Source of the DNA: Giesbergeria sp.
GTDB lineage: Bacteria; Pseudomonadota; Gammaproteobacteria; Burkholderiales; Burkholderiaceae_C
DNA length: 33,907 nucleotides
Direction of reading: 5' to 3'
Assembly (NCBI GenBank): GCA_017985015.1
Contig: JAGNYI010000032.1
Location: forward strand, 1 to 33,907
The notes under the pieces were generated by a model. The model saw only the letters and a list, made by a program, of their open reading frames with translations. It was not told where the DNA came from and did not search any database. A program made the position numbers and the translations under genes. Position 1 is the stretch's first letter. Every line of letters begins with the position of its first letter. This document shows, one piece after another, positions 3,490 through 24,857 of the stretch.

Positions 3490-3545
3490 TAAAAATAGCC
3501 TCTAACGCTTATCCCATAAGGGATTGCAGCTATTAACTTGATAGT
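3490..3545 (-). repeat. Two-hairpin intergenic repeat, copy 1
   Basis: Read on the minus strand, the 42-bp core (3504-3545) is ACTATC / 5-nt loop / AATAGC, a 4-nt spacer, then ATCCCTT / 7-nt loop / AAGCGTT. It is followed by the flank agaggctatttttacc. The spacing matches the five other copies in this window exactly, though this copy has diverged and has mismatches in both stems. It fills the gap between the convergent creA and DsbA-family genes and reaches the stop codon of the latter. It could contribute to transcription termination, but the T-rich flank lies several bases beyond the stem. Confidence 0.75.
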
Positions 3546-3546
3546 T

Positions 3547-4194
3547 TCAAGCCTGTGCCGCAATCTGCCGCAGCGCCTGCTCAAACACCTCGACCGGCTG
3601 GCCACCCTGGATCAGGTGGCGGTCATTCACGATGACGGCCGGCACCGAGTGAATGCCTTGTTGCAGGTAGAACTGCTCACGCTCACGCACCTCGGTCGCG
3701 TAGCGGTCCGACTGCAGCAGGGCGCGCGCCTCGGCCACATCCAGCCCCACCTCGCCCGCCAAGCGCACCAGCAGCTCGTGGTTGCTCGGGTCTTCTCCGT
3801 CGGTGAAGTAGGCCTTGAACAAGGCGTTCTTGAGCGCCGGCTGGCGCCCCTGCAGCTCGGCCCAGTGCAGCAGGCGGTGCGCGTCGAAGGTGTTGTAGAT
3901 GCGGCCGCGCGCACCGGGCGTGAAGGTGAAACCCAGCTCGGCACCGCGCGCAGCGATGGCGGCGCGCGTGGCTTCGCGCTGCTCGGCGGACGCGCCGTAT
4001 TTTTGCTGCAGGTGCTCGCCGATATCCTGGCCCTCAGGCGCCATCTGCGGATTGAGCTCAAACGGCTGGAAGTGCAGGTCCAACTGCACCTCACCGGCCA
4101 GGCGCTCGGCGGCCTGCTCGAGCGCGCGCAGGCCGATGACGCACCAGGGGCAGGACACATCGGAAACGAAATCAATTTTGAGGGGGGTGGCCAT
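3547..4194 (-). CDS. DsbA family oxidoreductase, FrnE-like
   Basis: This is a 215-residue protein starting at ATG 4194, with GGAG about 6 nt upstream on the minus strand. The longer frame adds 38 non-conserved residues and is not preferred. The sequence opens with MATPLKIDFVSDVSCPWC, giving a thioredoxin-fold active site C15-P-W-C18. The cis-proline segment SVPAVIVN near residue 182 and the helical insertion in between fit the FrnE/2-hydroxychromene-2-carboxylate isomerase-like DsbA family. No signal peptide is present, so it is probably cytoplasmic, unlike classical DsbA. FrnE relatives act as thiol-disulfide oxidoreductases or isomerases, sometimes under oxidative stress; the substrate here is unknown. 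It converges on creA and diverges from the SPOR-domain gene. Confidence 0.88.
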   Translation of the reverse strand: MATPLKIDFVSDVSCPWCVIGLRALEQAAERLAGEVQLDLHFQPFELNPQMAPEGQDIGEHLQQKYGASAEQREATRAAIAARGAELGFTFTPGARGRIYNTFDAHRLLHWAELQGRQPALKNALFKAYFTDGEDPSNHELLVRLAGEVGLDVAEARALLQSDRYATEVREREQFYLQQGIHSVPAVIVNDRHLIQGGQPVEVFEQALRQIAAQA

Positions 4195-4388
4195 CACAAT
4201 CTCCGGCAATCGGGTAAGCCTGCATTCTGAAGCGAAGCCGCCAGCGGCGCAGGCGGCAGCGCGGAACCTGCATGGGAAACCGGGGCGGAACGCGCCAAGC
4301 TCCCGCATTCATAGCGCACAGCACATATCCACCAAGCGCTGGAGGCCGATTGGGCTTGGGATTTCCCCGTTCACAACAGGGCTTTGCC

Positions 4389-5753
4389 ATGCCAGAATGC
4401 CGCATGCCCACGCACAGCCCCTTTGCCGACGCATACGCGCCATCGCAGGCCGCCAGCGGCAACACCGTGGATGCGCTCTACCGCGCCGCGCTCGGCCCAG
4501 TGCAGCAGCCGCGCTATCTGGCACTGTTTGAACGCTTTGACCAGGCGGGGCGGGCGCCCGTGGGCTGGAACCTTTCGGCCAGCCTGGCCACGCTCAACTG
4601 GATGCTGCTGCACCACCTGTGGACGGCGGCCTTGGTTTATGTGGCCTTGGTGGAAGGCCTGGCCCTGCTGATCTTTGGCGTGGGCCGCCCGCTGCTGCAC
4701 TGGCCCGAACAGGTGGAATGGGGGCTGATCGCGGCCTTCGCCCTGTTTGCCATCGTCCTGCCCGGCCTGTTTGGCGACGCGCTGCTGTACAGCGAAATCC
4801 GCAAGCGCATGGCACGCGCCCTGGTGGCAGCGCACAGCATTCCCGAAGCCTGCAACTTGCTCGCCCGCCAGGCCAGCAGCTGGCGGCGCCTGGTCTGGAT
4901 TGCCGTGGCCAATGGGGTGCTGTTTGCGGCCATCGCCGCCGCCTGGCTCTGGGTGCCCGAGGACGACTGGCGTGCGGGCCGCCCGACCGACGCGCAGGTA
5001 GCATCCGGTCCGGTGCAGAGTGCGAGCAAGGCGGTTTTGCCGGCCAGCGCTCCTGCTTCGGCTCCCGCGTCTGCTTCGGCTCCGACGCTCGCCACCGAGC
5101 CACGCACGGCCCCCGCCAGCGCCCCGAAGGCAGTGGCGTCAGGGCCTCAGACCATCGCGGTTTCGGCCACCGCCGCCGACGACGCCTCTTCTGTGCACCC
5201 CAGGGCGCGCGATGGCGGCGCGGGAGACACGCGCGTGCCGGATGCGGCGACGCCTGCCCCGACACAAACCGAGTACAGCGCAGCAAAGACTCCTTCTCCA
5301 CCCAACGCCACAGCGCCAACCCAAGACGCAGCGGCCCAAGTGGGGAAAGTGAGCCCACCGCCGGGCAAGCGGCGCGTCCCAGGGGCAGCCTCCCCTGCAA
5401 CGTCAAAATCGCTGGCCTCGTCTTCGCCTCTGGCCGCTGCGCCCTCCACCCCAGCCAGCGCTGCCACGCCCCCCCGCGAAGCTGCCAGCACACCCGCGCC
5501 CACGGCGCTGGGCAGTGCGCCCGGCTACTACCTCAACGTCGGTCTGTTTTCCGAAGAGGCCAACGCGCGCCGAGCGCAGGCCAAGCTGCTCAACGTCGGG
5601 CTGCCTGCGTTCCGCCAGACCTTCAATACCAAAAACGGCGAGCGCACCCGCGTGCGCGTGGGCCCGTTTGCCAGCGAGGCCGACGCGCAAAAAGCAGCCA
5701 CGCAGATTCGCAGTCTGCAGCTCGATGCGCTGATGTACCGCCAGCGCGGCTGA
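4389..5753 (+). CDS. Membrane protein with C-terminal SPOR domain
   Basis: This 454-residue protein begins at ATG 4389; ATG 4404 is equally possible, and neither has a clear ribosome binding site. The N-terminal half has three hydrophobic segments (about 77-98, 111-134, 168-190) in an arrangement that vaguely recalls DUF2628-type proteins. A long linker (about 195-375) rich in Ala, Pro, Ser and Thr follows, including an ASAP-like repeat. The last ~75 residues form a SPOR domain (YYLNVGLFSEEANARRAQAK, then RVRVGPFASEADAQKAA). SPOR domains bind glycan strands lacking stem peptides, usually at the division septum. The layout suggests an inner-membrane protein whose flexible linker reaches the peptidoglycan, possibly in cell division. 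The linker residue bias follows the high GC content and is probably unstructured. The exact family of the N-terminal half is uncertain. Confidence 0.8.
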   Translation: MPECRMPTHSPFADAYAPSQAASGNTVDALYRAALGPVQQPRYLALFERFDQAGRAPVGWNLSASLATLNWMLLHHLWTAALVYVALVEGLALLIFGVGRPLLHWPEQVEWGLIAAFALFAIVLPGLFGDALLYSEIRKRMARALVAAHSIPEACNLLARQASSWRRLVWIAVANGVLFAAIAAAWLWVPEDDWRAGRPTDAQVASGPVQSASKAVLPASAPASAPASASAPTLATEPRTAPASAPKAVASGPQTIAVSATAADDASSVHPRARDGGAGDTRVPDAATPAPTQTEYSAAKTPSPPNATAPTQDAAAQVGKVSPPPGKRRVPGAASPATSKSLASSSPLAAAPSTPASAATPPREAASTPAPTALGSAPGYYLNVGLFSEEANARRAQAKLLNVGLPAFRQTFNTKNGERTRVRVGPFASEADAQKAATQIRSLQLDALMYRQRG

Positions 5754-5891
5754 CGGCCCAGCGCCATGGCCCGGCCGCCGCAGCCTCCTGCAGGAGTCGA
5801 TCCGCGCGCCTACTGCTGCCGAGAGCGGCCCGGAGGATGCTGGCGGGGTGGGTCCATTGGCGGCAGCCACCGCCATCGCGCAGTGCCAGCC

Positions 5892-5920
5892 CTTGAAACT
5901 CGGGCAAATGCCCTTATCAT
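5892..5920 (+). promoter_or_regulatory. groES-groEL promoter, sigma-70 with sigma-32-like features
   Basis: TTGAAA (5893-5898) and TATCAT (5915-5920) are separated by 16 bp and each match the sigma-70 hexamers at 5 of 6 positions. The same DNA reads CTTGAAA (5892-5898), 12 bp, then CCCTTATC. The first part is an exact heat-shock sigma-32 -35 element and the second is a partial match to its -10 (CCCCATnT). The promoter runs straight into the CIRCE operator and lies about 110 bp ahead of groES. Confidence 0.7.
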
Positions 5921-5946
5921 TAGCACTCGTCCGATGCGAGTGCTAG
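5920..5946 (+). promoter_or_regulatory. CIRCE operator (HrcA binding site)
   Basis: The sequence TTAGCACTC (5920-5928), 9 bp, then GAGTGCTAG (5938-5946) matches the CIRCE consensus TTAGCACTC-N9-GAGTGCTAA at 17 of 18 arm positions. CIRCE binds the HrcA repressor, whose activity depends on GroE. Its position immediately downstream of the -10 fits repression of the groES-groEL transcript with feedback by chaperonin level. hrcA itself is not in the window. Confidence 0.95.
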
Positions 5947-6029
5947 CAACCTGCGCGGACTGAATACCGAGCGCCTGCCCTGCAGGCGCTTCGCCTTCCA
6001 GGCACATTTTTTGAACCAGGAGTACTGCA

Positions 6030-6320: not shown

Positions 6321-6347
6321 ATCGCGATTTATTTTCAGCGCAGGCTC

Positions 6348-6380
6348 ACTTGGCGCAGCCAAGTTAAGGGGCAAAGCCCC
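6348..6380 (+). other. Two tandem perfect hairpins in the groES-groEL spacer
   Basis: ACTTGGC-gca-GCCAAGT (6348-6364) and GGGGC-aaa-GCCCC (6368-6380) are perfect stem-loops separated by three bases. Neither is followed by a T-run, so they do not look like complete terminators. They may be a processing or mRNA-stability structure between the two chaperonin cistrons. Confidence 0.6.
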
Positions 6381-6405
6381 GGCCGAAGCTAAAAGTAATT
6401 CAAAC

Positions 6406-8141
<1,736 letters not shown>

Positions 8142-8217: not shown

Positions 8218-8550
8218 TCAGGTGGCCGAAGACTCGCCGTAGCCGTTGGCCTCTGCTTGGCTGGGCTGGACGAACCAATACAGCAGCACCAGATAGCCAA
8301 TGCCTGTGATCGTGAGCAGCTGCCACCAGCCCGAACGCCCCACGTCGTGCAGACGGCGCGTGCCCACGGCCAGCGCGGGCAGCAGCAACAACAACGCAAG
8401 AATGCTGTAGGCCACGTCGCCCAGCATGCCCGAGACAATCAGTGCCAGTATCTGGAACAGGAAGAACCACCAGAACTCAGACCGCGATGCACGGCCAGAA
8501 AACGTCGCGTACTGGCTCAGGCAGCTTTGAATGGCCTGCATAAAATTCAT
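8218..8550 (-). CDS. DUF805 family membrane protein
   Basis: This 110-residue protein opens with MNFMQAIQSCLSQYATFSGR and contains the DUF805 pattern GRASRSEFWWFFLF followed by hydrophobic helices and GTRRLHDVGRSGWW. There are about four membrane segments. DUF805 proteins are small inner-membrane proteins of unknown function. The start at 8550 has GAGAGGAA about 8 nt upstream on the minus strand. It converges on groEL and shares its terminator; no functional link is implied. Confidence 0.9.
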   Translation of the reverse strand: MNFMQAIQSCLSQYATFSGRASRSEFWWFFLFQILALIVSGMLGDVAYSILALLLLLPALAVGTRRLHDVGRSGWWQLLTITGIGYLVLLYWFVQPSQAEANGYGESSAT

Positions 8551-8832
8551 GGTGCGGTTCCTCTCTTGACTGGTTTTGGCTGGATTTCTGGGCGATTGCC
8601 CCGCGCCATGATAGGGCCTTCCGCGCCCATATCGCCCCGCTTCTCATCGACTCCGCTTGCCGATCTCAGAGGCATCTCGCTTCTCTTTTTGCTTTTATTT
8701 TGATAGCTATAAGTGCTTTACAGATAAGCGCTACAGCCAATTTTCTCTCTAATTTTTTGTCTGCCATTCGCCACAACCCGGGGCGCATCCCGCGTTAAGC
8801 CAATCTTCATGCCCGCCCCGCACCATGGCGGC
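8551..8832. other. Intergenic region between the DUF805 and SHP genes
   Basis: This 282-bp spacer separates two divergent genes. It holds the DUF805 ribosome binding site at its left edge and one copy of the two-hairpin repeat at 8691-8745. I see no convincing promoter hexamers, operator or further gene in it. Confidence 0.6.
8691..8745 (+). repeat. Two-hairpin intergenic repeat, copy 3
   Basis: The core 8691-8732 reads GCTTTT / 5 nt / GATAGC, spacer tata, then AGTGCTT / 7 nt / AAGCGCT, followed by acagccaatttt. The first stem has one mismatch and a wobble pair; the second has one G-T wobble. Unlike most copies it lies between two divergent genes, upstream of the cytochrome cluster. Confidence 0.8.
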
Positions 8833-9261
8833 ATGCATTTCTCACACCGCTTTCTCCCGACCGCCCGGGCCGCGCTGCTGGCGCTGGCCTGCACCCTGTC
8901 TCTGGCGCACGCCGCCGACACCACCGCCGCCCTGCAGATGCAGCGCTGGAGCGATGCCGCAGGCGCGCCTGCCAGCGCCGAGCGCGGGCGTGCGTTCTTC
9001 ACCAGCCGCCACGGCGGCGAATGGTCGTGTGCGTCGTGCCACGGCAACCCACCGACCACGGCCATGCGCCACGCTTCCACCGGCAAGACGATTGCCCCAT
9101 TCGCGCCCATGTTCAATCCCGAGCGCTTCACCGACACCGCCAAAGTGGACAAATGGTTCCGCCGCAACTGCAAGGACGTAGCAAGCCGCGAGTGCACGGC
9201 TGCCGAAAAGGCCGACATGCTGGCCTGGCTGCTTCAGTTCCACCCCAAGGACAAGCCATGA
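8833..9261 (+). CDS. SHP-type monoheme cytochrome c (DUF1924)
   Basis: This is a 142-residue exported protein. Starting at ATG 8833 gives a clean signal peptide with cleavage near residue 28 (LSLAHA|AD). One heme site, CASCH, is at 66-70. Further on, WFRRNCKD places Asn112 next to Cys113, with another Cys at 121. In sphaeroides heme protein (SHP) an Asn is the displaceable distal heme ligand, next to a disulfide cysteine, so this arrangement supports an SHP assignment. SHP binds small ligands such as oxygen or NO at the heme and takes electrons from a diheme cytochrome c. The following gene starts within this stop codon (ATGA), and its product is that predicted electron donor. The upstream ribosome binding site is weak. 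Confidence 0.85.
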   Translation: MHFSHRFLPTARAALLALACTLSLAHAADTTAALQMQRWSDAAGAPASAERGRAFFTSRHGGEWSCASCHGNPPTTAMRHASTGKTIAPFAPMFNPERFTDTAKVDKWFRRNCKDVASRECTAAEKADMLAWLLQFHPKDKP

Positions 9262-9737
9262 CCGCGTTCATCCCGCTGCTGCGTCCTGCCGCCGTCCTGT
9301 TGGCGCTGGCCAGCGCCGCGTCCGCCGCGCTGGCCGACAGCCGCGCCATGCCCGCCGACAGCATGCTGCCGGCCTACCGCCAGGAATGCGCCGCCTGCCA
9401 CATGGCCTATCCACCGGGCATGCTGCCCGCCGCTTCGTGGACGCGGATGCTGGGCCGCCTGGACCAGCACTACGGCAGCGACGCCTCGCTCGACCCGGCC
9501 CTGATGCGCCAGATCGGCACCTGGCTGGAGGCGCATGCCAGCACCTACAAGCGCGTGCGCGAACAGCCCCCGCAAGACCGCATCACCCGCTCGGCCTGGT
9601 TCGAGCGCAAGCACCGCGAGCTGGACGCCGCCGTGTGGCAGCGCACCTCTGTCGGCAGCCGCGCCAACTGCATGGCTTGTCACACGCGCGCAGACCGGGG
9701 CGATTTTGACGACGACCGCGTCCGCATTCCGAAGTGA
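9258..9737 (+). CDS. Diheme cytochrome c (DHC type)
   Basis: This 159-residue protein starts at ATG 9258, which overlaps the previous stop by four bases and implies translational coupling. Residues 1-28 form a signal peptide ending near AALADS. Two heme-binding sites are visible: CAACH early (YRQECAACHMAYPPGMLP) and CMACH near the C-terminus (GSRANCMACHTRAD). The MAYPPGMLP motif after the first heme and the WLEAHAS helix are typical of the DHC family that accompanies SHP. It should be periplasmic, carrying electrons between the membrane cytochrome b encoded next and the SHP encoded before. Confidence 0.9.
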   Translation: MTAFIPLLRPAAVLLALASAASAALADSRAMPADSMLPAYRQECAACHMAYPPGMLPAASWTRMLGRLDQHYGSDASLDPALMRQIGTWLEAHASTYKRVREQPPQDRITRSAWFERKHRELDAAVWQRTSVGSRANCMACHTRADRGDFDDDRVRIPK

Positions 9738-9745
9738 GACCTTCC

Positions 9746-10474
9746 ATGACGAGCAATACCCTTTCCCCTGCCACCGCAACGCCGGCTCCAGCGCCCAGCC
9801 GACGCGTGGTGGACGCCACCACGCGCATGCTGCACTGGCTCATGGCGTTCACATTCACCACCGCCTACCTCACGGCCGACGGCGAGCGCTGGCGGCTGGT
9901 GCACGTCACCTTGGGCTACACCTTGGCCGCCCTGGTGGTGGCGCGCCTCCTGTGGGGACTGGTCGGGCCGCGCCCGGTGCGGCTGTCGGTGCTGTGGGGC
10001 AAATTGCGCGGCCTGCCCAAATGGCTTCAAAACGCGGTTGCCGTGCGTTCGCCCAGCGCTCTGCAAGCCACCTGGAGGCCGGCGCAGCACCTGCTGATGG
10101 CGCTGGCCGTGGCACTGATCCTGGCCTTGGTGCTGCCGCTCACACTCAGCGGCTACGCCGTGTGGGACGAATGGGGCGGTGAATGGCTGGAGGAAGTGCA
10201 CGAATTTTTCGGCAATGCCCTGCTGGGAATGGTGCTGGCGCACATCGGCCTGATTGCATTGCTCAGCCTGCTGCGCCGCAAGAACCAGGCGCTGTCCATG
10301 CTGACCGGGCGGGTGCCCGGCAAGGGGCCTGACATCGCCAAGAACAACCACGGCTTTCTCGCCGCCCTGGTGCTGGCCTGCGTCCTCGGCTTCTGGGCCT
10401 GGCAGTGGCAGACGGCGCCCCAAGCGCCGCAGCAGCACGGGAGCGAGAATCACCGCTACGACCACGACGACTGA
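9746..10474 (+). CDS. Membrane cytochrome b (b561 family)
   Basis: This 242-residue protein starts at ATG 9746; a GTG at 9734 overlapping the previous stop is an alternative. The N-terminal RRVVDATTRMLHWLMAFTF carries a heme-ligand type histidine. Further hydrophobic segments follow, with histidines in RLVHVTLGY, PAQHLLMALAV and MVLAHIGLI, as in four-helix diheme cytochrome b561 proteins. The tail is rich in His and Asp (ENHRYDHDD) and faces one side of the membrane. In SHP/DHC operons this protein is thought to pass electrons from the quinone pool to DHC. The gene is 8 bp after the DHC gene and 10 bp before the response regulator, so all are probably one transcript. Confidence 0.9.
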   Translation: MTSNTLSPATATPAPAPSRRVVDATTRMLHWLMAFTFTTAYLTADGERWRLVHVTLGYTLAALVVARLLWGLVGPRPVRLSVLWGKLRGLPKWLQNAVAVRSPSALQATWRPAQHLLMALAVALILALVLPLTLSGYAVWDEWGGEWLEEVHEFFGNALLGMVLAHIGLIALLSLLRRKNQALSMLTGRVPGKGPDIAKNNHGFLAALVLACVLGFWAWQWQTAPQAPQQHGSENHRYDHDD

Positions 10475-10484
10475 CCAACCACCC

Positions 10485-11174
10485 ATGCGCATCCTGCTGG
10501 CCGAAGACGACGAACTGCTGGGTTCGGGCATCCGCGCCGGCCTGGCACAGCACGGCTTTGCGGTGGACTGGGTACGCGACGGCATGGCGGCAGAGCGCGA
10601 ACTGGCCACTGGCGCCTACCAGGCCTGCGTGCTTGACCTGGGTCTGCCGCGCCAGGACGGCATGGACGTGCTGCAGGGCGCGCGCGCACGCCGCAACACC
10701 ACGCCGGTGCTGGTGCTCACCGCCCGCGACGCGGTGCCCGCGCGCATTGCCGGGCTGGATGCGGGGGCCGACGACTACCTCATCAAACCCGTGGATCTGC
10801 ACGAGCTGGCCGCCCGCCTGCGCGCCTTGGTGCGCCGCGCCCACGGCCAGAGCGATGCGCTGCTGACGGTGGGCAGCGTCACGCTCGACCCGGCCGCGCA
10901 CCAAGTGCTGCTGGGCGGCCAGCTGGTGGAACTGTCCAACCGCGAATACAAGCTGCTGCACGCCTTGCTGCTCAACGCCGGGCGCGTGCTCTCGCGCGAG
11001 CAGCTGGAGCAGCGCCTGTACCAGTGGGGCAGCGAGATCAACAGCAACGCGGTGGAGGTGCACATCTACCACCTGCGGCGCAAGCTGGGCGCCACGCTGA
11101 TCGAGACCGTGCGCGGCGTGGGCTACCGGATCGCCCGCACCAGCGTCGGCGCATCCCCTGAAAACGATGGCTGA
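10485..11174 (+). CDS. OmpR/PhoB-family response regulator (QseB-like)
   Basis: This 229-residue protein has a receiver domain (1-115) with acidic pair D8-D9, phosphoacceptor Asp51 in VLDLGLP, Thr79 and Lys101 in the DDYLIKP motif. A winged-helix DNA-binding domain follows (about 130-220) with SNREYKLL, EVHIYHLRRKLG and TVRGVGYRI. It overlaps the histidine kinase gene by 8 bp, so the two are translationally coupled. The gene closely follows the cytochrome b gene, suggesting autoregulation and control of the cytochrome operon. The natural signal is unknown; redox state or a ligand of SHP is a reasonable guess. Confidence 0.92.
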   Translation: MRILLAEDDELLGSGIRAGLAQHGFAVDWVRDGMAAERELATGAYQACVLDLGLPRQDGMDVLQGARARRNTTPVLVLTARDAVPARIAGLDAGADDYLIKPVDLHELAARLRALVRRAHGQSDALLTVGSVTLDPAAHQVLLGGQLVELSNREYKLLHALLLNAGRVLSREQLEQRLYQWGSEINSNAVEVHIYHLRRKLGATLIETVRGVGYRIARTSVGASPENDG

Positions 11175-12507
11175 CCGCACCCCGCGCTCACTGCAATCGC
11201 AGTTGCTGCTGGCCGTGCTCGGCCTGGTGCTGCTGGCCTGGACGGCCGCCGCCGCCCTGACCTGGCACCAGGCCCAGGACGAAGTGGGCGACCTGCTCGA
11301 CGCGCACCTGGCGCAGACCGCCTCTCTGCTGCGCCTGCAGCAACTCGACGAATTGAACGAAGACCAGTTGAATGAAGCGCCCGACCTCGACAAGCACCAG
11401 CACCATGTGGTGTTCCAGCTCTGGCGGGAGGGCCAGTTGCTGGCTCGCTCGAAGAACGCGCCCACCGAACCCCTCACCCATCAAAGGGGGCGCGGCTTTG
11501 CCGACAGCCAGGCAGCGGGCAAGTCCTGGCGCGTGTTCGTCACCCAGGGGCACGAGGGCGATGTGAACATTCTTGTCGGCGAACAGCAGTCGGCGCGCCA
11601 AGACATCGTGCGGGCCAGCGTGGTCGGCATGCTCAAGCCCATGGCCTTGGCGCTGCCCCTGCTGGCACTGGGCATCTGGTGGGTGGTGCGCGGCCTGGTG
11701 CGCCCGCTGCGCCAGTTGGGCACGGCCGTGTCAGTGCGCCAGCCGCAGTCGCTCGTGCCCCTGCCCACGGCCGGTGTGCCGCCCGAGGTGCTGCCGCTGG
11801 TGAGTGCACTCAACGACTTGTTCACGCGCATGGCCGAGCTGCTGGTCACCGAACGACAGTTCACGGCGGACGCCGCGCACGAGCTGCGCACGCCTATTGC
11901 CGGCATCCGCATGCAGGCCCAGGTGGCCCAGGGCGCCACGCAGAGCGCCGAGCGCGCAGCGGCACTCGACGCCACCGTGCAGGGCTGCGACCGTGCCACC
12001 CGCCTGGTGGAGCAGCTCTTGCAACTCGCCCGGCTCGACGCCGAGACGGCCACCCCGGATGCAGCGGCCACGGATCTCGGGCGCGTAGCGCACATGGTGG
12101 TGGCAGATCTGCAATCTGCGGCCCAGGCACGTGGCCAGCAGGTGCTGCTGCAGACCCCCGGCCCAGTGAATATCCACCTGACGGAGCCACTGGCGCAAGT
12201 GCTGCTGCGCAACCTCCTGGACAACGCGCTGCGCTACAGCCCGGACGGTGCACAGGTGCAGGTCCACATAACTGCCGCCAGCGCTGGCATCCCGGCACGG
12301 CTGTGCGTGGAAGACGGCGGGCCGGGCCTCACGAATGGCGAGATGGCACGGCTGGGCGAGCGCTTTTTTCGGGTACTTGGCACGGGACAGAGCGGCAGCG
12401 GCCTGGGCTGGTCCATCGTGCGGCGCATCGCCCGCCTCCACAACCTGCGCTTGCAGGTGGACCGCAGCCCGGCGCTGGGTGGGCTGCGGGTGCAGGTCAG
12501 CTGGTAG
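11167..12507 (+). CDS. Sensor histidine kinase (QseC-like)
   Basis: This 446-residue inner-membrane protein has TM1 at about 13-32, a periplasmic loop of about 125 residues, and TM2 near 157-178. The HisKA box FTADAAHELRTP contains the phosphoacceptor His238. The catalytic domain has N-box LLRNLLDNALRYSP, the G1 segment VEDGGPGL, the F box ERFFRV and the G2 segment GSGLGWSIV. All kinase motifs are intact. It is the last gene of the cytochrome-TCS cluster and shares 8 bp with its regulator gene. The repeat element that follows lies in the gap to the convergent AraC-type gene. Confidence 0.92.
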   Translation: MADRTPRSLQSQLLLAVLGLVLLAWTAAAALTWHQAQDEVGDLLDAHLAQTASLLRLQQLDELNEDQLNEAPDLDKHQHHVVFQLWREGQLLARSKNAPTEPLTHQRGRGFADSQAAGKSWRVFVTQGHEGDVNILVGEQQSARQDIVRASVVGMLKPMALALPLLALGIWWVVRGLVRPLRQLGTAVSVRQPQSLVPLPTAGVPPEVLPLVSALNDLFTRMAELLVTERQFTADAAHELRTPIAGIRMQAQVAQGATQSAERAAALDATVQGCDRATRLVEQLLQLARLDAETATPDAAATDLGRVAHMVVADLQSAAQARGQQVLLQTPGPVNIHLTEPLAQVLLRNLLDNALRYSPDGAQVQVHITAASAGIPARLCVEDGGPGLTNGEMARLGERFFRVLGTGQSGSGLGWSIVRRIARLHNLRLQVDRSPALGGLRVQVSW

Positions 12508-12516
12508 CGGCAATCA

Positions 12517-12573
12517 GCTATTATTCATATAGCATAAAATGCTTTATGAATATGCGCTAGAGCCATTTTCATA
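12517..12573 (+). repeat. Two-hairpin intergenic repeat, copy 4
   Basis: The core 12517-12558 reads GCTATT / 5 nt / TATAGC, spacer ataa, then AATGCTT / 7 nt / ATGCGCT, followed by agagccattttcat. Each stem has mismatches but the spacing is conserved. It is the main content of the gap between two convergent genes, just after the kinase stop. Confidence 0.8.
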
Positions 12574-12595
12574 CCGGCATCCAGCCCGCCAGATT

Positions 12596-13639
12596 TCACA
12601 ACCCGCGCTCAGATACCGGCATTGCCCGGTGGACCGCCTTGCGGTACACCAGCGGCGTCTCGCCGGTCCAGCGCCGGAAGGCATTGATAAAGCAGGTGGG
12701 CTCTGCATAGCCCAGATGGTCTGCAATGTTCTCGACGGACAACGATCCGCCGGACAGCAACTCTTCGGCGGTTGCACGCCGCACTTCCTCTCGCAATCGA
12801 AGAAACGTCGCGCCCTCCTCCAGCAGTCGACGCCGCAGGGTCCGTGGCGTCATGCACAGCGCGTCGGCCACTTCATCCATGCCGGGCATGCCTGCGCCCT
12901 GCCGGGTCAACAGGCTCTTTACTCTTGCGGCAAGACCGGCGCCTGACCGGTGGCGCTCCAACAAGTCGGAGCACTGCGCCTGCGCGGCCTTGAAGGCCAG
13001 GGCATTGCCCTGAGACAAAGGCTCCATCAGCACCGACCTGTCCATGGTGGCCACGTTCGACGAAGCCCCAAATACCGGCTCGACGCCATAAAAAGAGGCG
13101 TACGCCTGTGCATCAACCGGCGCACGGCGCGTGAATCGCAGGCCCTGAAGGACAGGACGCGACGAAAACAGGTCACGCTGTATGGTCACCAAGGCGGCCG
13201 CATCGCGCTCGACGATGAAGGCCCGCACATCCTCCGGCAGGCTGGACTCGTCCAGCGTGATGTGCGTCTGAGCACCTTGGTCTTCGACATGGAAGCGCGT
13301 AAACGCGAAGGTGAGCTGGAAATACCGCAGAGTCACGTCCAGCGCACTGCGGGCATTCGGGCTGCTGACCATGGCAAACCCCAAAGCGCCAAATGCCGTG
13401 AAGTGGTAACGCTGTCCTGCCTGGAGACCCAGCCCCGGGACGGTGCCCAGATGTTTGAGCAAATTGCGGATCAGGCGCAACTCCTGCCCGGCCGACACCA
13501 GCATGGTGGGGTTTGCCAGATCCTGCTCCTTGACGCCTGTTTCCGCCAGGCAGGCGTGCGCCGAGAGTCCGTGTTCGACACCCAACTCGGTCATCAACCG
13601 CATGCTGGTCACACTGCGTGTGAAATCCCATTCCACCAT
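12596..13639 (-). CDS. AraC-family transcriptional regulator
   Basis: This 347-residue protein starts at ATG 13639 (MVEWDFTRSVTSMRLM). Residues 15-210 resemble the arabinose-binding-like sensor region of OruR/ArgR-type AraC regulators, including the segment near HFTAFGALGFAMVSSPNARS. The C-terminal ~100 residues hold two helix-turn-helix motifs: VADALCMTPRTLRRRLLEEG, then VENIADHLGYAEPTCFINAF with RWTGETPLVYR. It is transcribed away from the acyl-CoA dehydrogenase operon across a 171-bp gap, the usual position of a pathway-specific activator. The effector is unknown, but by family and position it is probably the operon substrate or its CoA ester. Confidence 0.9.
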   Translation of the reverse strand: MVEWDFTRSVTSMRLMTELGVEHGLSAHACLAETGVKEQDLANPTMLVSAGQELRLIRNLLKHLGTVPGLGLQAGQRYHFTAFGALGFAMVSSPNARSALDVTLRYFQLTFAFTRFHVEDQGAQTHITLDESSLPEDVRAFIVERDAAALVTIQRDLFSSRPVLQGLRFTRRAPVDAQAYASFYGVEPVFGASSNVATMDRSVLMEPLSQGNALAFKAAQAQCSDLLERHRSGAGLAARVKSLLTRQGAGMPGMDEVADALCMTPRTLRRRLLEEGATFLRLREEVRRATAEELLSGGSLSVENIADHLGYAEPTCFINAFRRWTGETPLVYRKAVHRAMPVSERGL

Positions 13640-13810
13640 TCAGCACACCCCTGGGAACTGGCTGTCCTTGAATATCGATTTTTTGTCTTCTGTGAATGTA
13701 GCACCGCTTCCTGTCCGTCCTTAGCATCTGGCGTCAAAGATCCCATGGGCAAAGACCCGGGACGAACCGAGACACCCTGCCGCCGCGGGTCACATTGAGG
13801 ACACCCACCG

Positions 13811-14941: not shown

Positions 14942-16311
14942 ACACGCCAGACCACCTTCAAGGGCACCTGCCCGCAGACCACCGCCTTTCACCGCGCTGG
15001 CAGTTCCGCCATCTGCCGCTGATCGGACGCATGCTGGCGGACTATCCAGCACAGGACTTGTGGCAAACCGACTTTGCCAGGCTGCCGCGTGCGCTGGCCC
15101 GTCAGCGCCAGCGCGCCAGAGCGTTCACCGAGCAACACATCCTGTCCGCAGCAGACGAATTGGACCTGGCCCCGCACCTGCAGGCCGGGGAATGCCATCC
15201 AACCGCGCGCCGCATTCTGTCCGAGGCGGGCAAACAAGGGTGGCTGAGCTATTTCTTGCCAGCCCCGCTGGGCAAAATGCCCTGGGGCACTGTGGTGCAT
15301 GCGCCGATCTGGCAAAGCTGCCTGATCGTTGAAGAGTTCAGCCGTGGCTGCGGCGGTCTGATGCTGCTGCTGTCGGCACACCATCTCGGCGCCATGCCCT
15401 TGATCCTGTCCGGGCGCGTGCAGCACATTCTGAAGCTCCTGGCCCCTGTCTACCGCAGTTGTGAGCGCGGCGATCCGCAGCTGATCGCGTTCGCGATCAC
15501 CGAGCCCGCAGCCGGGTCCGACGTGGAGGACGGGCACGGTGCGCAGACCTACCACCCCGGCGTCGTCGCGACACCCACCAAAGGCGGCTACCTGCTCAAT
15601 GGCCGCAAGTGTTTCATCAGTGGCGGCGATCTGGCAAAGACGGCCACCGTCTTTGCTGCGCTGCAGGGCGAAGGAATGGAATCGTGGACCTGCTTCTATG
15701 TGGACTGCTCTGACCCCGGATACCGGGTGGCCCGCACGGAGCTCAAGATGGGCATGCGCGCCTCTGGGGCGGCCGAGATTGAATTGTCCGATGTCTTTGT
15801 CCCCACCGATCGCGTCATCGGCGGGTTGCGCAATGGCTGGGTGCTGAACCGCGCCACCCTCAACGCCTCACGGATTCCTGTGGCGTCCATGGGGGTTGGC
15901 TTTGCCAGGGCCGCCACCGAAACGGCCGTGGAGTTTGCCCAACACTACAAGGTGGGCGGCAAGGCCTTGATCCACTACCAGGACGTTCAGCTGCACCTGG
16001 CCACCATGGTGGCCGAGACCCGCGCGTTGCGCGCACTGGTCTGGCAAGAAGCCCGCCTTGCCTGGAAGCCCCGGCAACTCCATGCATCGCTGTGCAAGTT
16101 CCACGCCACCGATCGCGCCCAGCGCGTCTGCGAAATGGCGATGGACCTGCTCGCCGACCATGGTGCACGGCATGAGAACAGGATCGAGAAAATCTTCCGC
16201 GACGTCCGGTTGACCCGCATCTTCGAGGGCACCAACCAGATCAACCGCCTGTCCCTGATCGAAGACTGGCAGCCCCAGCTGCTCGATCCTGACCACCCCG
16301 CAGGAGTATGA
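14938..16311 (+). CDS. Acyl-CoA dehydrogenase, catalytic subunit
   Basis: This 457-residue protein has a full family layout: an N-terminal helical domain, a middle domain with IAFAITEPAAGSDVEDGHG and GYLLNGRKCFISGG, and a C-terminal helical domain. The catalytic motif IFEGTNQINRL contains Glu430, the predicted base. The enzyme should oxidise an acyl-CoA to the 2,3-enoyl-CoA using FAD and pass electrons to electron-transfer flavoprotein. It is longer than typical short-chain acyl-CoA dehydrogenases (about 380), mainly through an extended N-terminus. Four-base overlaps with the genes on both sides suggest stoichiometric expression with the preceding partner subunit. The substrate is not evident. 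Confidence 0.88.
   Translation: MNTPDHLQGHLPADHRLSPRWQFRHLPLIGRMLADYPAQDLWQTDFARLPRALARQRQRARAFTEQHILSAADELDLAPHLQAGECHPTARRILSEAGKQGWLSYFLPAPLGKMPWGTVVHAPIWQSCLIVEEFSRGCGGLMLLLSAHHLGAMPLILSGRVQHILKLLAPVYRSCERGDPQLIAFAITEPAAGSDVEDGHGAQTYHPGVVATPTKGGYLLNGRKCFISGGDLAKTATVFAALQGEGMESWTCFYVDCSDPGYRVARTELKMGMRASGAAEIELSDVFVPTDRVIGGLRNGWVLNRATLNASRIPVASMGVGFARAATETAVEFAQHYKVGGKALIHYQDVQLHLATMVAETRALRALVWQEARLAWKPRQLHASLCKFHATDRAQRVCEMAMDLLADHGARHENRIEKIFRDVRLTRIFEGTNQINRLSLIEDWQPQLLDPDHPAGV
16302..16306 (+). promoter_or_regulatory. Ribosome binding site that decides the next start
   Basis: AGGAG lies only 1 nt before the ATG at 16308 but 7 nt before the ATG at 16314. The second ATG is therefore the better start for the acetoacetate-decarboxylase-family gene. 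Confidence 0.6.
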
Positions 16312-16313
16312 AC

Positions 16314-17108
16314 ATGCAGCACCACAAATGGCAGAGCGACCTGTTCTTTCAGTACCCGCGCAACACCGTTGCGACGTCAGAGGGCAAGGTGGAGATGCCG
16401 ATCCTGTACTACGACAACTCGGTCATGATGGCCCTGTTTCGTGTGGACAGCAACAAAGCCCAGGCACTGGTAGCAGAACAGGGCCTGCAAGTGGTCCGCA
16501 CCCTGGGCGGCAAGGCGCTGGCAGGCATTGCCTTCTACCAATACCGGGACACCTCCATCGGCGTGTACAACGAGGTCGGCGTCGCCATTGCCGTTGTGCC
16601 CAGCGGTACCAAGGCGCCCCGGTACCCCCTGGTGTCCATGCTCAACACACTGGACAAGGCCCCCGTTGGCTTCTGCATCCTGGACCTGCCGGTCACGACC
16701 CCTGCCGCCTGTGCGGCCGGGCGCGAGATCTGGGGGTATCCGAAGTTCGTGACACCGATAGCCTTTTCCCTCAAGGGTTCCCAGTTTGATGGGGTGGTCA
16801 CCGACCCCGACACACACCAGGATCTGCTTCACCTCTCCGGCAAGGCGGGCGCTGGCATTCCTGGTCCCTTGCTGGACCTGGTCCTGTATTCACGCCACAA
16901 CGCAGAGCTGCTTCGCACCTTGGTCAACACCCGGGGCGGGGCGCACATCTGCCTACCCGGATCGATGCGCGCCACCGTATCCGATAGCAGCACCCACCCC
17001 ATGGCCCAGCGATTGCGTGCCCTGGGGCTGCACCACGCCAGGCCCGCTTTTGTCTTTCACAGCCATGCACTGCAGTTGCGCCTCAATGCTGGTGCCGTGC
17101 TGCCCTGA
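16314..17108 (+). CDS. Acetoacetate decarboxylase family protein
   Basis: This is a 264-residue protein from the ATG chosen by its ribosome binding site; an ATG two codons earlier is possible. The family core is clear: YNEVGVAIAV (Glu87, matching a conserved active-site Glu), LPVTTPAACAAGREIWGYPK and the following FVTPIAF strand. Lys144 in GYPKF is at or near the position of the Schiff-base lysine of acetoacetate decarboxylase. Members either decarboxylate beta-keto acids or perform other Schiff-base chemistry such as aldol/dehydratase reactions, so decarboxylation is likely but not certain. Placed after acyl-CoA dehydrogenases, it could act on a beta-keto or related intermediate of the same pathway. 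Confidence 0.85.
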   Translation: MQHHKWQSDLFFQYPRNTVATSEGKVEMPILYYDNSVMMALFRVDSNKAQALVAEQGLQVVRTLGGKALAGIAFYQYRDTSIGVYNEVGVAIAVVPSGTKAPRYPLVSMLNTLDKAPVGFCILDLPVTTPAACAAGREIWGYPKFVTPIAFSLKGSQFDGVVTDPDTHQDLLHLSGKAGAGIPGPLLDLVLYSRHNAELLRTLVNTRGGAHICLPGSMRATVSDSSTHPMAQRLRALGLHHARPAFVFHSHALQLRLNAGAVLP

Positions 17109-17166
17109 GAATCTGCTCATGGTCTTTTCAGGGGGCGCGCAATCCCTCAAACAACGGCACGACCCC

Positions 17167-17943
17167 ATGGAATCTCGCCCTTGTCTGTTCATCACCGGAG
17201 CCGCCGCAGGCATCGGCCGTGCCACCGCCCGCCTTTTCTGTCGTCAGGGCTGGTTTGTCGGCCTCGCCGATATCGATCGCGCTGGTCTGCTGGCCTTGAG
17301 CGAGGAACTGGGCGACCACAATGCGATGGCGCTGTCACTGGACGTGGCCTGTCCAGAGCAATGGCAAGCGGCGCTCAGCGCCTTTCACCAGCGCACTGGG
17401 CGCCTTGACGTACTGGTGAACAACGCGGGCATCCTGATCTCGGGCCCATTCGAGAGCAACCCCCTGGCACGCCACCACGCCGTGGTCGATGTCAACCTCA
17501 AGGGACTGCTCAACGGCTGCTACCTGGCCAAGCCCTATCTGGCAGCAACGCCACAGGCCCGCGTCATCAACCTTTCCTCGACGGCGGCACTGTACGGCCA
17601 GGCATCGCTGGCAACGTACTCCACCACCAAGTGTGCGGTGCGAGGCCTCACAGAAGCACTGAACGTCGAATGGCAGGCCGATGGCATCCGTGTGATGGAC
17701 ATCATGCCGATGTTTGTTCAAACGGACATGCTCACCGCCATCAATGCCCGCAGCATGGACAGACTGGGCGCCCGGCTGACCGCAGAGGAGGTGGCCAGAA
17801 CCCTCTGGGCCGCCGCCACGTACCGGGGCGGCTTCGGCAAGGCGCATTGGCCCGTTGGCTCGCTCGCGACCTGGCTCATGCGCCTGACCCGCCTGGCACC
17901 CGACCGCCTCAACCGCTTCATCGCAAAGCGGGTTGCTACCTGA
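17167..17943 (+). CDS. Short-chain dehydrogenase/reductase (SDR)
   Basis: This is a 258-residue classical SDR. The cofactor motif TGAAAGIG is at 10-17, NNAG at 85-88 and the catalytic residues are Asn110, Ser138, Tyr151 and Lys155 (YSTTK). Asp35 at the end of the second strand suggests NAD(H) rather than NADP(H). An ATG at 17119 would add 16 residues that do not fit the fold, so 17167 is preferred, although its ribosome binding site is weak. It is the last gene of the AraC-linked operon, 58 bp after the decarboxylase-family gene, and probably oxidises or reduces a hydroxy/keto group of the pathway intermediate. The C-terminal tail is rich in Arg and Leu. Confidence 0.88.
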   Translation: MESRPCLFITGAAAGIGRATARLFCRQGWFVGLADIDRAGLLALSEELGDHNAMALSLDVACPEQWQAALSAFHQRTGRLDVLVNNAGILISGPFESNPLARHHAVVDVNLKGLLNGCYLAKPYLAATPQARVINLSSTAALYGQASLATYSTTKCAVRGLTEALNVEWQADGIRVMDIMPMFVQTDMLTAINARSMDRLGARLTAEEVARTLWAAATYRGGFGKAHWPVGSLATWLMRLTRLAPDRLNRFIAKRVAT

Positions 17944-18014
17944 CTTCCTGGACGCCTTATGGCTTGCGCTAGCGCTTACCGGGGATATGCAGCATGGCAC
18001 TGGTGTAGAAATTT

Positions 18015-18071
18015 ACTATCTAAAAGATAGCTGTAATCGCTTATTAGATAAGCGCTAGATCCATATTTCAC
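18015..18071 (+). repeat. Two-hairpin intergenic repeat, copy 5
   Basis: The core 18015-18056 reads ACTATC / 5 nt / GATAGC, spacer tgta, then ATCGCTT / 7 nt / AAGCGCT, followed by agatccatatttca. There is one mismatch in each stem. It lies between the convergent SDR and eda genes and its flank touches the eda stop codon. Confidence 0.8.
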
Positions 18072-18706
18072 TGGTTTTTTTCACGCATCGCGTGCGTTGC
18101 CTGCGCCTGTTCCGTGATGCGCGCCCAGTCGCCTGCGCCCACGGCATCGGGTGGCGTCAGCCACGAGCCACCCACGCAGCGCACATTGGGCAGCGCGAGG
18201 TAGTCGCCCGCCGACTGCGCTGTGATACCGCCCGTAGGGCAGAAGCCGACGGCGCCAAACGGGCTGGCCCAGGCTTTGAGCAAACCGACACCCCCCACGG
18301 CCTGCGCCGGGAACAGCTTGAGAAAGTCGTAGCCGTCGGCCAGGGCGGCCATGATCTCACCCGAGGTCGCCACGCCGGGCAGCAGCGGCAGGCCCAGTGC
18401 GCGGCAGGCTGCGCCCACGGCGTGGGTGTAGCCGGGGCTCACAGCAAACACCGCGCCTGCTTCTTGGGCACGCCGCGCGTCCTCGGCGTTCAGCACCGTG
18501 CCCGCGCCGACGATGGCGTCGGGCAATGCACGCGCGATCGCTTCGATGGCCGGCAGGGCGGCAGGCGTGCGCAGGGTGATTTCCAGCACCCGCACGCCGC
18601 CAGCGAGCAACGCGCGCGCCAGCGGCAGTGCGTCGGCCTCGCGCTCGATCACGATAACGGGAATGACAGGCCCGAAACCGGGCAAATCCTGTGTCTTCAA
18701 AGCCAT
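18068..18706 (-). CDS. eda: 2-keto-3-deoxy-6-phosphogluconate aldolase
   Basis: This 212-residue protein is the final enzyme of the Entner-Doudoroff route. It splits KDPG into pyruvate and glyceraldehyde 3-phosphate. The Schiff-base lysine is Lys130 in [11 protein letters not shown]; Glu42 and Arg46 (VLEITLRTP) are the expected active-site residues, and the GAGTVL and PGVATSGE segments are typical. The start ATG 18706 has AAGGAG upstream, although the frame stays open further. The start lies 10 bp inside the end of edd, so the two are translationally coupled and share the edd promoter and its HexR-like sites. Confidence 0.97.
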
Positions 18707-20598: not shown

Positions 20599-20605
20599 AA
20601 CTCGC

Positions 20606-22162: not shown

Positions 22163-22207
22163 CGGGGAATCCTTGGATCGGGCGAGGGCTCATTCCGGGC
22201 ACAGGAA

Positions 22208-22222: not shown

Positions 22223-22263
22223 TTTCATCAAAGATATATCCACAAAGAACTTCCAAATATTCA

Positions 22264-22278
22264 TGTAACGCGATTACA
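22264..22278. promoter_or_regulatory. HexR-like operator, zwf side
   Basis: TGTAA-CGCGA-TTACA is a perfect 5-bp inverted repeat with 5-bp spacing, 30 bp upstream of the zwf start. The centre differs from the AT-rich consensus but both arms match fully. Confidence 0.65.
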
Positions 22279-22308
22279 ATTTTTCGTCCCATCCCTAAGG
22301 AAGTGTCC

Positions 22309-23763: not shown

Positions 23764-23778
23764 GCGGTACCCGCCGCC

Positions 23779-24759
23779 CTATCGGCTTGCAGCGTCCGCC
23801 ATGTCCAAGGCCCGCGCGGCGCCATACAGGGCCGGCGCGCCATCGGGATCGATCACCCAGCAGGGAATGCTGGCCAGGTAGTCCCTGAAGCGCCCCTTGG
23901 CTTCAAAGCGCTTGCGGAAGGACGACTGGTCAAACCACGGGCCCAGGCGCGGCACGATGCCCCCGCCCAGGTACACGCCGCCCTTGGCGCCCAGGGTGAG
24001 CGCCAGATTCCCCGCCACGCTGCCCAGAAAACCGCAGAACATGTCCAGCGCCTGCAGCGCCAAGGGCTCGTGCTGCTCCAGGGCCAGGCCAGTGACCTGG
24101 GCGGGATCGGTCACTTCTTTGCCAGCTTCGCGCCCCAATTTGCGCAGGGCGTGGTACAGATCCACCAGACCCGCCCCCGAGAGGGCACGCTCGGCCGACA
24201 CGTGGCCATAGCGCTCTTTGAGCAGGGACACCACCTCGAACTCCTGCGCCGTTTCGGCGGCGAGCGACACATGGCCACCCTCGCCCGCCAAGGGCACGCC
24301 CCGCCCGGAGCCCTGGGGAAAGAGCAGGCCCGATACGCCAAGCCCGGTGCCCGGCCCCAGCAGCGCCACCGCCGCGCCCGGTACGGCTTGGCTGCCGCCC
24401 ACCTGGCGCAGCAACTCTGGCTTGAGCTGGGGCAGCGCCAATGCCAGCGCGGTGAAGTCGTTGATGACGATCAGCCGCTGCAAACCCAGGGCTTGCTGCA
24501 CGGCGCGCTGCGAAAAGCTCCAGGAGTGGTTGGTCATGCGCACTTCGTCGCCCACCACCGGGTTGGCAATGCCAAACGCCGCCTCCCGCGGCTGCGGCAC
24601 CTGTACCTGCGCCAGGTAGGCTGACACAGCCGCCGTCAGGCTCGGGTAGTCGTCGCAAGGCTGTACCCGGATGTCATTGAACGGGCCCTGGGGCGTGGCC
24701 TGCCAGGCCAGGCGGATATTGGTGCCACCAATGTCGGCAAGAAGGCGCGAAGGGTGCAT
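23779..24759 (-). CDS. glk: Glucokinase
   Basis: This 326-residue enzyme is of the E. coli Glk type. The phosphate-binding motif DIGGTN is at 9-14, the catalytic base is Asp101 in VINDFTALAL, and LGPGTGLGVSG is the second nucleotide loop. It phosphorylates glucose with ATP after uptake by the ABC transporter encoded upstream. I chose ATG 24759; an in-frame TTG at 24792 would add 11 poorly conserved residues. No good ribosome binding site is seen for either. No HexR-like site lies directly upstream. The gene follows the transporter ATPase gene after 143 bp that hold a two-hairpin repeat, so it may be read through from the transporter operon. Confidence 0.95.
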   Translation of the reverse strand: MHPSRLLADIGGTNIRLAWQATPQGPFNDIRVQPCDDYPSLTAAVSAYLAQVQVPQPREAAFGIANPVVGDEVRMTNHSWSFSQRAVQQALGLQRLIVINDFTALALALPQLKPELLRQVGGSQAVPGAAVALLGPGTGLGVSGLLFPQGSGRGVPLAGEGGHVSLAAETAQEFEVVSLLKERYGHVSAERALSGAGLVDLYHALRKLGREAGKEVTDPAQVTGLALEQHEPLALQALDMFCGFLGSVAGNLALTLGAKGGVYLGGGIVPRLGPWFDQSSFRKRFEAKGRFRDYLASIPCWVIDPDGAPALYGAARALDMADAASR

Positions 24760-24800
24760 AAGAGAGGAAGCGCGCGCCCCGGCTCCGGCCAAGGCACGTC

Positions 24801-24857
24801 GCTATTAAATAAATAGCTTATAGCGCTTGTGGAATAAGCGCTGGAGCCTGTTTTTAC
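24801..24857 (+). repeat. Two-hairpin intergenic repeat, copy 6
   Basis: The core 24801-24842 reads GCTATT / 5 nt / AATAGC, spacer ttat, then AGCGCTT / 7 nt / AAGCGCT, followed by ggagcctgtttttacc. Both stems are perfect. It lies between the ATPase gene and glk. If those genes share a transcript, the element is transcribed in the antisense sense relative to its own orientation. Confidence 0.85.

Follow-up and report, generated by a model that had tools for sequence, protein, structure and literature searches.

A dispersed chromosomal site of about 71 bp in part of the Comamonadaceae, with a putative role in nucleoid or supercoil organisation

The window analysed here, a stretch of 33,907 nucleotides of the Giesbergeria sp. 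genome (contig JAGNYI010000032.1), raises the question of what a repeat of nearly fixed geometry signifies when it returns again and again along the DNA. The first-pass annotation had described it as a purely intergenic unit of 57 bp, folding into two hairpins and present in six copies.

Extent and number of the copies

All six copies were indeed found where they had been placed, with the spacing described, and a seventh, weaker one (42 bits) was added at 4294-4364 on the plus strand. The copies in the window are as follows.

3480..3550, minus strand: 71-bp element, weight-matrix match of 78.8 bits; copy 1 of the first-pass annotation
4294..4364, plus strand: 71-bp element with divergent flanking genes, 41.9 bits; absent from the first-pass list
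6401..6471, plus strand: 71-bp element in the groES-groEL interval, 67.9 bits
8686..8756, plus strand: 71-bp element with divergent flanking genes, 86.3 bits
12512..12582, plus strand: 71-bp element with convergent flanking genes, 56.1 bits
18010..18080, plus strand: 71-bp element with convergent flanking genes, 82.4 bits; one of them, 18068-18706, is overlapped at its 3' end
24796..24866, plus strand: 71-bp element flanked by two minus-strand genes, 88.3 bits

The copy at 3480..3550 lies between two convergent genes (2963-3469, plus strand; 3547-4209, minus strand) and shares 4 bp with the second at its 3' end; the one at 12512..12582 starts 5 bp past the end of gene 11167-12507. Several of these places are occupied in relatives as well. 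The groES-groEL copy was found at the same place and in the same orientation in 13 of the 20 relatives examined, and genome G012 holds a copy (57 bits) between the orthologs of the genes that flank 4294..4364, and another (86 bits) at the place matching 24796..24866. A single copy (85 bits) also lies in G012 between the orthologs of 8218-8550 and 18068-18706; since the intervening DNA is missing there, it may match either 8686..8756 or 18010-18080. The sites are thus inherited vertically at orthologous places, and the earlier remark that similar sequences occur in other Comamonadaceae was borne out.

With positions counted from the TAGC motif, column information rises from about -18 and returns to background after +52/+53. 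These sharp edges therefore define an element of ~71 bp, longer than the annotated unit; the 57-bp core is real, and each of its copies is part of the larger, bounded element. The best self-symmetry of the weight matrix has its dyad at +18 (r 0.46 vs a median of 0.12), and the mirror symmetry of the element about its centre is rough and only partial. In 833,907 bases of the same genome, the ungapped weight matrix retrieved 123 copies, the weakest at 17.4 bits, whereas reversal of this DNA gave a top score of 8.4, and 739,866 bases of codon-shuffled genes one of -11.3; the copies are not due to chance. Extrapolation from 123 per 834 kb gives ~500 copies for the genome of 3.37 Mb, in accord with the earlier guess of many hundreds, and in the chromosomes sampled the element recurs about once every 6-7 kb. 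A strict pattern run on the whole genome gave 344 strand-hits, with some places counted on both strands, vs 0 for a control pattern. The geometry, previously called invariant, proved nearly so: among 208 nhmmer hits (both strands counted, E up to 10), two were unequal in model and sequence length, both at one place, and the groES-groEL copy of G014 is one base short. It is to be noted that pairs of inverted half-sites are present in G029, so that the geometry is not absolute everywhere.

Placement along the chromosome and distribution among genomes

In the Giesbergeria genome, with genes called by a simple script rather than a standard caller, the ends of genes were favoured on the 3' side, in either orientation of the element: the numbers of sites and of intergenic regions (70 bp or longer) were 32 and 51 for the convergent arrangement, 58 and 214 for the tandem one and 8 and 74 for the divergent one, where the sites may also sit in regions shorter than those counted. 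Within tandem regions the two orientations were equally frequent (29 and 29). Neighbouring copies shared their orientation in 68 of 112 pairs, a weak tendency (p 0.03) that was given no weight. Polarity along the chromosome was considered for G012, in which the matches listed between ~0.88 and 3.08 Mb were nearly all on the plus strand; rescanned stretches there contained both orientations, and the plus-strand excess among the matches listed was therefore taken as an effect of the listing.

The spacing of own-genome copies of at least 45 bits had a coefficient of variation of 0.635, vs 0.909 +/- 0.079 under a null that takes intergenic regions into account. For the other two genomes the gap null assumed uniform placement only; against it, G012 had 5 gaps below 2 kb where 12.4 were expected, and G029 had 6 where 7.0 were expected, with a coefficient of variation of 1.36 over 200 kb. 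The own genome and G012 thus support avoidance of near neighbours, or even spacing, which was not seen in the small G029 sample. Within the genus, 23 of 26 genomes are saturated with sites, and three species nearly lack them, namely G002, G005 and G008 with 0, 3 and 2 sites (1, 5 and 5 at a laxer setting). Overall, the element is restricted to part of one family, the Comamonadaceae.

Such placement could be explained without any dedicated protein if the element were a preferred wrapping site of gyrase or topoisomerase IV, at which positive supercoils are removed at gene ends. The 3'-end and convergent preference (32 sites to 51 regions), the lack of orientation bias and the A/T-rich columns lying some 2 and 3 helical turns off the dyad all speak for it, and the gyrase sites of E. 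coli REP/BIME elements behave similarly. However, a topoisomerase site would not be expected to be confined to part of one family or to be nearly absent from three genus members that presumably keep gyrase, and the known gyrase preferences have less length and information than the 71-bp element; we consider this explanation unlikely.

Sites within genes and the pairing of the stems

Overlap with called genes was found for 24 of the 123 copies, 20 well inside and 4 at gene edges; the repeat is therefore not purely intergenic, as had been assumed, nor extragenic in the manner of REP/BIME elements. The 24 copies are held by 23 genes, of which 19 were scanned against NCBIfam. A site of at least 15 bits occupies the orthologous place in 14 of 20 relatives for dxr, 17 of 20 for lpxB and 16 of 20 for a methyltransferase gene; a site was likewise found in 10 of 20 for metG and in 9 of 21, one of these not evaluable, for aroA-cmk (the rows for aroA-cmk of G012, a partial gene alignment, and metG of G030, fragmented, were dropped). 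In these five genes the same codons are occupied in many relatives by means of AT-rich synonymous codons, and the protein carries no 24-residue insertion, its length being native to within a few residues. In carriers, dxr, lpxB and the methyltransferase gene each have a lowest-GC3 window of 24 codons that begins no more than 2 nt from the site edge, with GC3 of 0.36-0.44 within the site vs 0.80-0.83 outside; dxr of G004, whose site scores 63 bits, was kept out of these codon statistics because of a partial gene match. Between groES and groEL, high-information columns differ in 21% of pairs among 14 orthologs and low-information columns in 56% (Spearman -0.59). Conservation thus acts on the DNA itself, whatever the reading frame or strand, as in a chromosomal protein-binding site. 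In aroA, metG and pgi, presence of the site goes with small changes in length; recC, acnA and the acetoacetate-CoA ligase gene, which lie outside the relative comparison, clearly exceed their family models, and insertion may have occurred there.

The double hairpins did not hold as a conserved feature. Among 105 copies, with those under 45 bits left out, pairing was near the expectation of independence at every stem pair. A second alignment of 50 copies, made of 48 of 49 references (every second of 97 copies above 50 bits) and two window copies, had 74.5% of cells paired against a shuffled mean of 74.5, and a covariation score of 0.074 vs a shuffled mean of 0.083. Coupling was found between neighbouring bases, most strongly TTT vs AAA at +38..+40, where AAA replaces TTT in about one-fifth of the copies. 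The hairpin reading fails because no stem pair covaries and the coupling joins neighbouring bases, and a double hairpin acting as RNA was rejected on both sets of copies. Such coupling is as in a double-stranded protein site, and a duplex DNA site appears to be the best reading of these alignments. The earlier expectation of many further copies with fixed spacing was thus upheld, and that of compensatory changes was not. The view that the copies are no ordinary terminators is also sustained: an intrinsic terminator needs a hairpin with a U-run directly behind it, pointing the same way as the gene upstream, and here the tandem orientations are balanced and the TTT at +38..+40 is not constant. 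Rfam returned no match in the window at gathering, and one copy searched together with its flanks had none at E up to 5.

A REP/BIME-like or MITE-like repeat, spread by transposition and partly domesticated, would owe its fixed geometry to transposase recognition. Like REP/BIME elements with their RAYT transposases, the element has hundreds of copies, 3'-end intergenic preference and a partly palindromic look, and the over-long intragenic hosts would suit a mobile origin. Against this, no stem-loop is kept by compensatory change, indels are almost nil despite strong divergence, near neighbours are avoided, and the element is written into essential genes, with no insertion of 24 residues in the five genes compared, and sits at the same places in related species. 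Rickettsia palindromic elements, which likewise lie in reading frames, are present as insertions, unlike the sites in the five host proteins compared. The suggested search for a REP-associated transposase led to the rejection of RAYT as a partner, since the Y1_Tnp family (PF01797) is present in the non-carriers G002, G005, G008, G026, G030, G032 and G033 and was not found in the carrier G003, which is 99% complete. A mobile-repeat origin is accordingly quite improbable.

A signal for self-recognition or DNA uptake has only a very slight chance of being correct. Uptake sequences of Neisseria and Pasteurellaceae also reach high copy number, often at gene ends and at times within genes; in its favour, BLAST with the consensus matched no phage record and only 2 plasmid records, a search with one consensus being insensitive, and an acquired-looking 46-kb stretch of G029 holds no site. 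However, a fixed site of 71 bp far exceeds an uptake sequence in length, and neither the avoidance of close pairs, seen in two genomes, nor 3'-end placement is needed for uptake. An RNA-level element, with the two hairpins as terminator, mRNA 3' stabiliser or attenuator, is equally hard to credit: copies follow stop codons, many are able to form both stems and a T-run comes after most, but compensatory change is absent, both orientations are used equally, and 12 of the 24 intragenic copies are in sense orientation, including those in recC and aroA-cmk, where a terminator would do harm.

Candidate proteins and the proposed role

The explanation that we favour as probable is a chromosomal duplex site of ~71 bp, in ~500 copies per chromosome, held by purifying selection and bound by a protein that would organise the nucleoid or supercoiling; both this protein and its function we infer from sequence. 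Two families were tested as its reader, the Y1_Tnp family above and NdpA (PF04245), and neither tracks the site, NdpA being rejected for want of co-distribution. Synteny with G002, in which 44 own genes were strongly matched in 11 stretches, yielded four candidate missing genes, all unconvincing. Literature searches by word and by four motif strings gave no description of the element, the motif strings returning one, unrelated, paper; subscription papers and preprints lay mostly outside their scope, so that a description may exist. The available passages of PMC2755013, PMC2817692 and PMC9045143 hold nothing on it.

The putative protein, dimeric or oligomeric and specific to part of the family, would bind both halves of the site and probably bend or wrap its 71 bp. 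Sites that mark the ends of transcription units every 6-7 kb could in that case serve as anchors of nucleoid loops or restrict how far supercoiling spreads, and loss of the protein would release all sites together, as may have happened in G002, G005 and G008. Established chromosome-maintenance motifs, such as matS/MatP, parS/ParB, KOPS/FtsK and the Noc and SlmA sites, are of ~8-20 bp, dispersed, selected and tolerated in coding DNA. The present element resembles them as a dispersed double-stranded site under selection, also in coding DNA, with protein binding predicted; it differs in its length of ~71 bp, its ~500 copies, its 3'-end preference, its restriction to part of one family and the lack of a clear orientation bias in our sample. 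To our knowledge, the motifs of this dispersed kind described to date are short.

In its fullest form, the proposal is that part of the Comamonadaceae carries ~500 such sites, one each 6-7 kb, encoded within essential genes through the choice of codons if room between genes is short, that they are read by a putative wrapping protein which defines supercoil or loop domains, and that a lineage may lose the entire system in one step; we regard this as evenly poised between right and wrong. If it is true, a 71-bp site dictates synonymous codons in dxr, lpxB and aroA, and chromosome architecture would thus constrain protein-coding sequence. The element also offers natural sites in their hundreds, cases of natural loss and a clear route to the protein, and such sites would make testable the question of what sets the borders of supercoil domains in bacteria.

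Extent, copy number and distribution of the element

The six repeats reported by the first-pass annotation were indeed found in the window, with a single common geometry, and the two hairpins described there are the left and middle portions of an element of about 71 bp. The unit was set at this length because, counted from the conserved TAGC, column information rises near -18 and fades near +53, and the columns beyond carry no signal. An ungapped weight matrix, iterated over the window and forty 20-kb stretches of its own genome (833,907 bases; the assembly has 3,368,410), retrieved 123 copies, of which the lowest scored 17.4 bits, against a background maximum of 8.4 bits in the identical DNA reversed and -11.3 in codon-shuffled genes. 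The prediction of many hundreds of copies per genome holds, at about 500 by extrapolation from the sampled DNA. The window contains one further copy, listed here with the groES-groEL features:

4294-4364, seventh copy of the element
6401..6471 (+), copy between groES and groEL
6343-6395, second inverted-repeat-like segment, upstream of the groES-groEL site

Model and sequence length were unequal in 2 of 208 nhmmer matches, both at a single place; these matches are local, and indels close to the element ends could escape. The site has an approximate dyad, as the matrix best resembles its own reverse complement at about +18, the midpoint of the element (r 0.46; median 0.12).

Among 80 listed stretches, of at least 115 in named genomes matching an exact pattern, the genera were Acidovorax, Simplicispira, Comamonas, Rhodoferax, Giesbergeria, Extensimonas and Paenacidovorax, the remaining listed records being named only at a broader taxon. 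At a setting of 0.001, matches were obtained in 31 of 60 genomes, own included. In the window's genus, 23 of 26 genomes had at least 83 scored candidates, the other three being G002 (0), G005 (3) and G008 (2); ten other genera of the family gave at least 83 in four, 77 in one, 9 in one and none in four, and no matches came from the 24 genomes sampled in the order's other families. A laxer setting yielded 1 match in G002 (29 bits by weight matrix), 5 each in G005 and G008, and 13 in a further genome, G031. In a sample drawn from across the family (250 genomes, 126 genera), matches at 1e-6 were present in 72 genomes and 46 genera. BLAST with a single consensus, an insensitive search, returned two matches in plasmid records and none in phage records.

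Base pairing and selection on the DNA

The base-paired hairpins of the first-pass annotation were not supported. In 105 copies, Watson-Crick pairing at each pair of the two stems was close to the value expected from independent column frequencies, the largest difference being 6 points, downwards. In 50 copies, paired cells under the proposed structure amounted to 74.5%, the same as after shuffling, cells changed on both sides numbered 5 versus 6.6, and the covariation proposed as a check for both stems was 0.074 versus 0.083. The 3' arm AAGCGCT is almost invariant in the 105 copies, and in each stem one 5' partner is an A facing C in about 38% of copies. With pairing close to independence and no covariation, a hairpin identity of the element was rejected. 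Coupling was strongest among adjacent bases, above all as TTT or AAA at +38..+40, and this is the appearance of a double-stranded site with A/T tracts.

The 24 copies overlapping genes were 12 sense and 12 antisense, and 17 of them share one reading phase. NCBIfam was scanned with 19 of the 23 host genes; at the E-value applied, three of the 19 gave no match:

Above cut-off: recC, lpxB, dxr, metG, aroA-cmk, acetoacetate-CoA ligase, acnA, dihydropteroate synthase gene, ksgA, hutF, glcE, trpF
Below cut-off: RlmB-like methyltransferase (trmH-like), dihydrolipoamide acetyltransferase, FAD-linked oxidase, DNA methyltransferase-like gene

For the genes compared, mobile insertion of 71 bp does not account for the copies, and selection on DNA does. 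Sites of at least 15 bits occupied the orthologous place in 14 (dxr), 17 (lpxB) and 16 (methyltransferase gene) of 20 relatives, in identical codons where aligned, and no 24-residue insertion was found at these three sites in the relatives' dxr-lpxB cluster. In carriers, the lowest-GC3 window of 24 codons begins no more than 2 nt from the site edge in all three genes (see table).

Codon statistics at three intragenic sites (inside/outside the site)
Gene; carrier genomes; GC3; synonymous codon identity; gene windows equally or more identical than the site
dxr; 13; 0.36/0.80; 0.83/0.72; 4.0%
lpxB; 14; 0.44/0.82; 0.83/0.74; 4.5%
methyltransferase gene; 14; 0.44/0.83; 0.82/0.73; 6.4%

In aroA, the invariant residues SSASYFIA are encoded in carriers by codons such as gct agc tat ttc ata gct, and in non-carriers by more GC-rich ones; the site is present in 9 of 21 relatives, two others scoring 14.3 and 11.8 and one not being evaluable, and its stretch is 25 residues long in carriers versus 20-25 in non-carriers. 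The metG site, found in 10 of 20 relatives, spans 23-25 residues in carriers versus 15-25 elsewhere. Of 11 relatives, 5 bear a site in a variable loop of pgi, scoring 15.0 to 49.6 bits; the own genome has none there. The excess over the matched NCBIfam span was 73 residues in recC, 73 in acnA, 42 in acetoacetate-CoA ligase and 24 in metG; of these four overlong genes, metG was the one compared in relatives, and insertion may apply at the other three.

Orthologous places and chromosomal placement

The groES-groEL element recurs in 13 of 20 relatives, and pairs among its 14 orthologs differ at 21% of high-information versus 56% of low-information columns. DNA similar to window 6343-6395 lies in the same gap of two relatives (G013, G017), and a different insert in two others (G012, G024). 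Twelve G002 stretches contained no weight-matrix score above 2.7 bits. Its orthologous places at dxr (-20.8) and the methyltransferase gene (-16.5), where the same scan gave -51 to -70 for non-carriers G032 and G042, score as would be expected of decayed sites; its lpxB place (-49.4) was little better than theirs (-63.2, -60.4). Near-total loss in G002, G005 and G008 suggests loss of one putative site-binding protein.

G005 retains variants within longer repeats, at 3042 and 3946 of L265 (contig G005:C45) and near 9742 and 10063 of L266 (G005:C3); the former lie near an integron-integrase-like reading frame, named by eye, in a setting that looks like a gene-cassette array. All five G008 matches are on a single contig, G008:C372 (L268 and nearby), possibly through contamination or transfer from a carrier.

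With genes called by a simple caller, 98 of the 123 copies were intergenic, 24 overlapped genes (4 at gene edges) and 1 was at a stretch end. Convergent regions contained 32 copies, tandem 58 and divergent 8, against 51, 214 and 74 regions of 70 bp or longer in the same classes; the tandem copies were evenly oriented (29 each way). Gene 3' ends lie at a median of 3 bp from the element edge on one flank and -2 bp on the other (n = 61 for each), versus 22 under random placement.

Copies avoid one another in two genomes. In the own genome, those of at least 45 bits had a gap CV of 0.635 versus 0.909 +/- 0.079, and 4 gaps below 2 kb versus 18.7, under a null of random intergenic regions drawn with identical class preferences; in G012, a complete relative (19 stretches), there were 5 such gaps versus 12.4 under uniform placement (p 0.004). 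Avoidance was not seen in G029, of another genus (6 versus 7.0 expected), where the gap CV was 1.36 over 200 kb including a 46-kb site-free stretch whose genes, judged by eye, include restriction- and transposase-like ones.

Five 20-kb samples at about 1.8-2.1 Mb of G012:C1 (L253-L257) held 1, 0, 3, 2 and 3 sites, sparser than elsewhere, with a GC-skew change nearby. In G012 (L198), the orthologs of window 8218-8550 and 18068-18706 are joined without the intervening DNA, with one site at the junction; the own genome has one at each end (window 8686-18080), and deletion between two sites might account for the difference. Near offsets 106055 and 128479 of G029 (joined L269-L278), half-site-like stretches form inverted pairs 50 bp apart, and the half-site may stand as a unit of its own.

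Candidate proteins and proposed function

An association with a REP-associated tyrosine transposase, which the first-pass annotation suggested testing, did not hold: the Y1 transposase family is present in non-carriers but none was found in carrier G003, and it was rejected as the binding protein. NdpA (PF04245), absent from most carriers, was likewise rejected. A single Y1_Tnp-like gene lies at L071 (G000:C55:45276-45605; open frame 250 aa), and many family genomes, element-bearing or not, contain similar copies with open frames of about 230-300 aa.

No description of the element was found in the literature searched. It resembles REP/BIME repeats in location and number but lacks their defining covariation, transposase and extragenic location. 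Short chromosome-maintenance motifs include matS, KOPS, parS and Noc sites; the element may work like these, although it is several times longer and confined to part of one family.

Overall, purifying selection acts on the element as a double-stranded DNA site that is roughly symmetric and neutral in orientation, located at transcription-unit ends and, in two genomes, away from its neighbours. A protein dimer or oligomer would bind it, and A/T tracts about two and three helical turns from the dyad would ease bending or wrapping; the 6-7 kb spacing and 3'-end preference would suit borders of supercoil domains or loop anchors.
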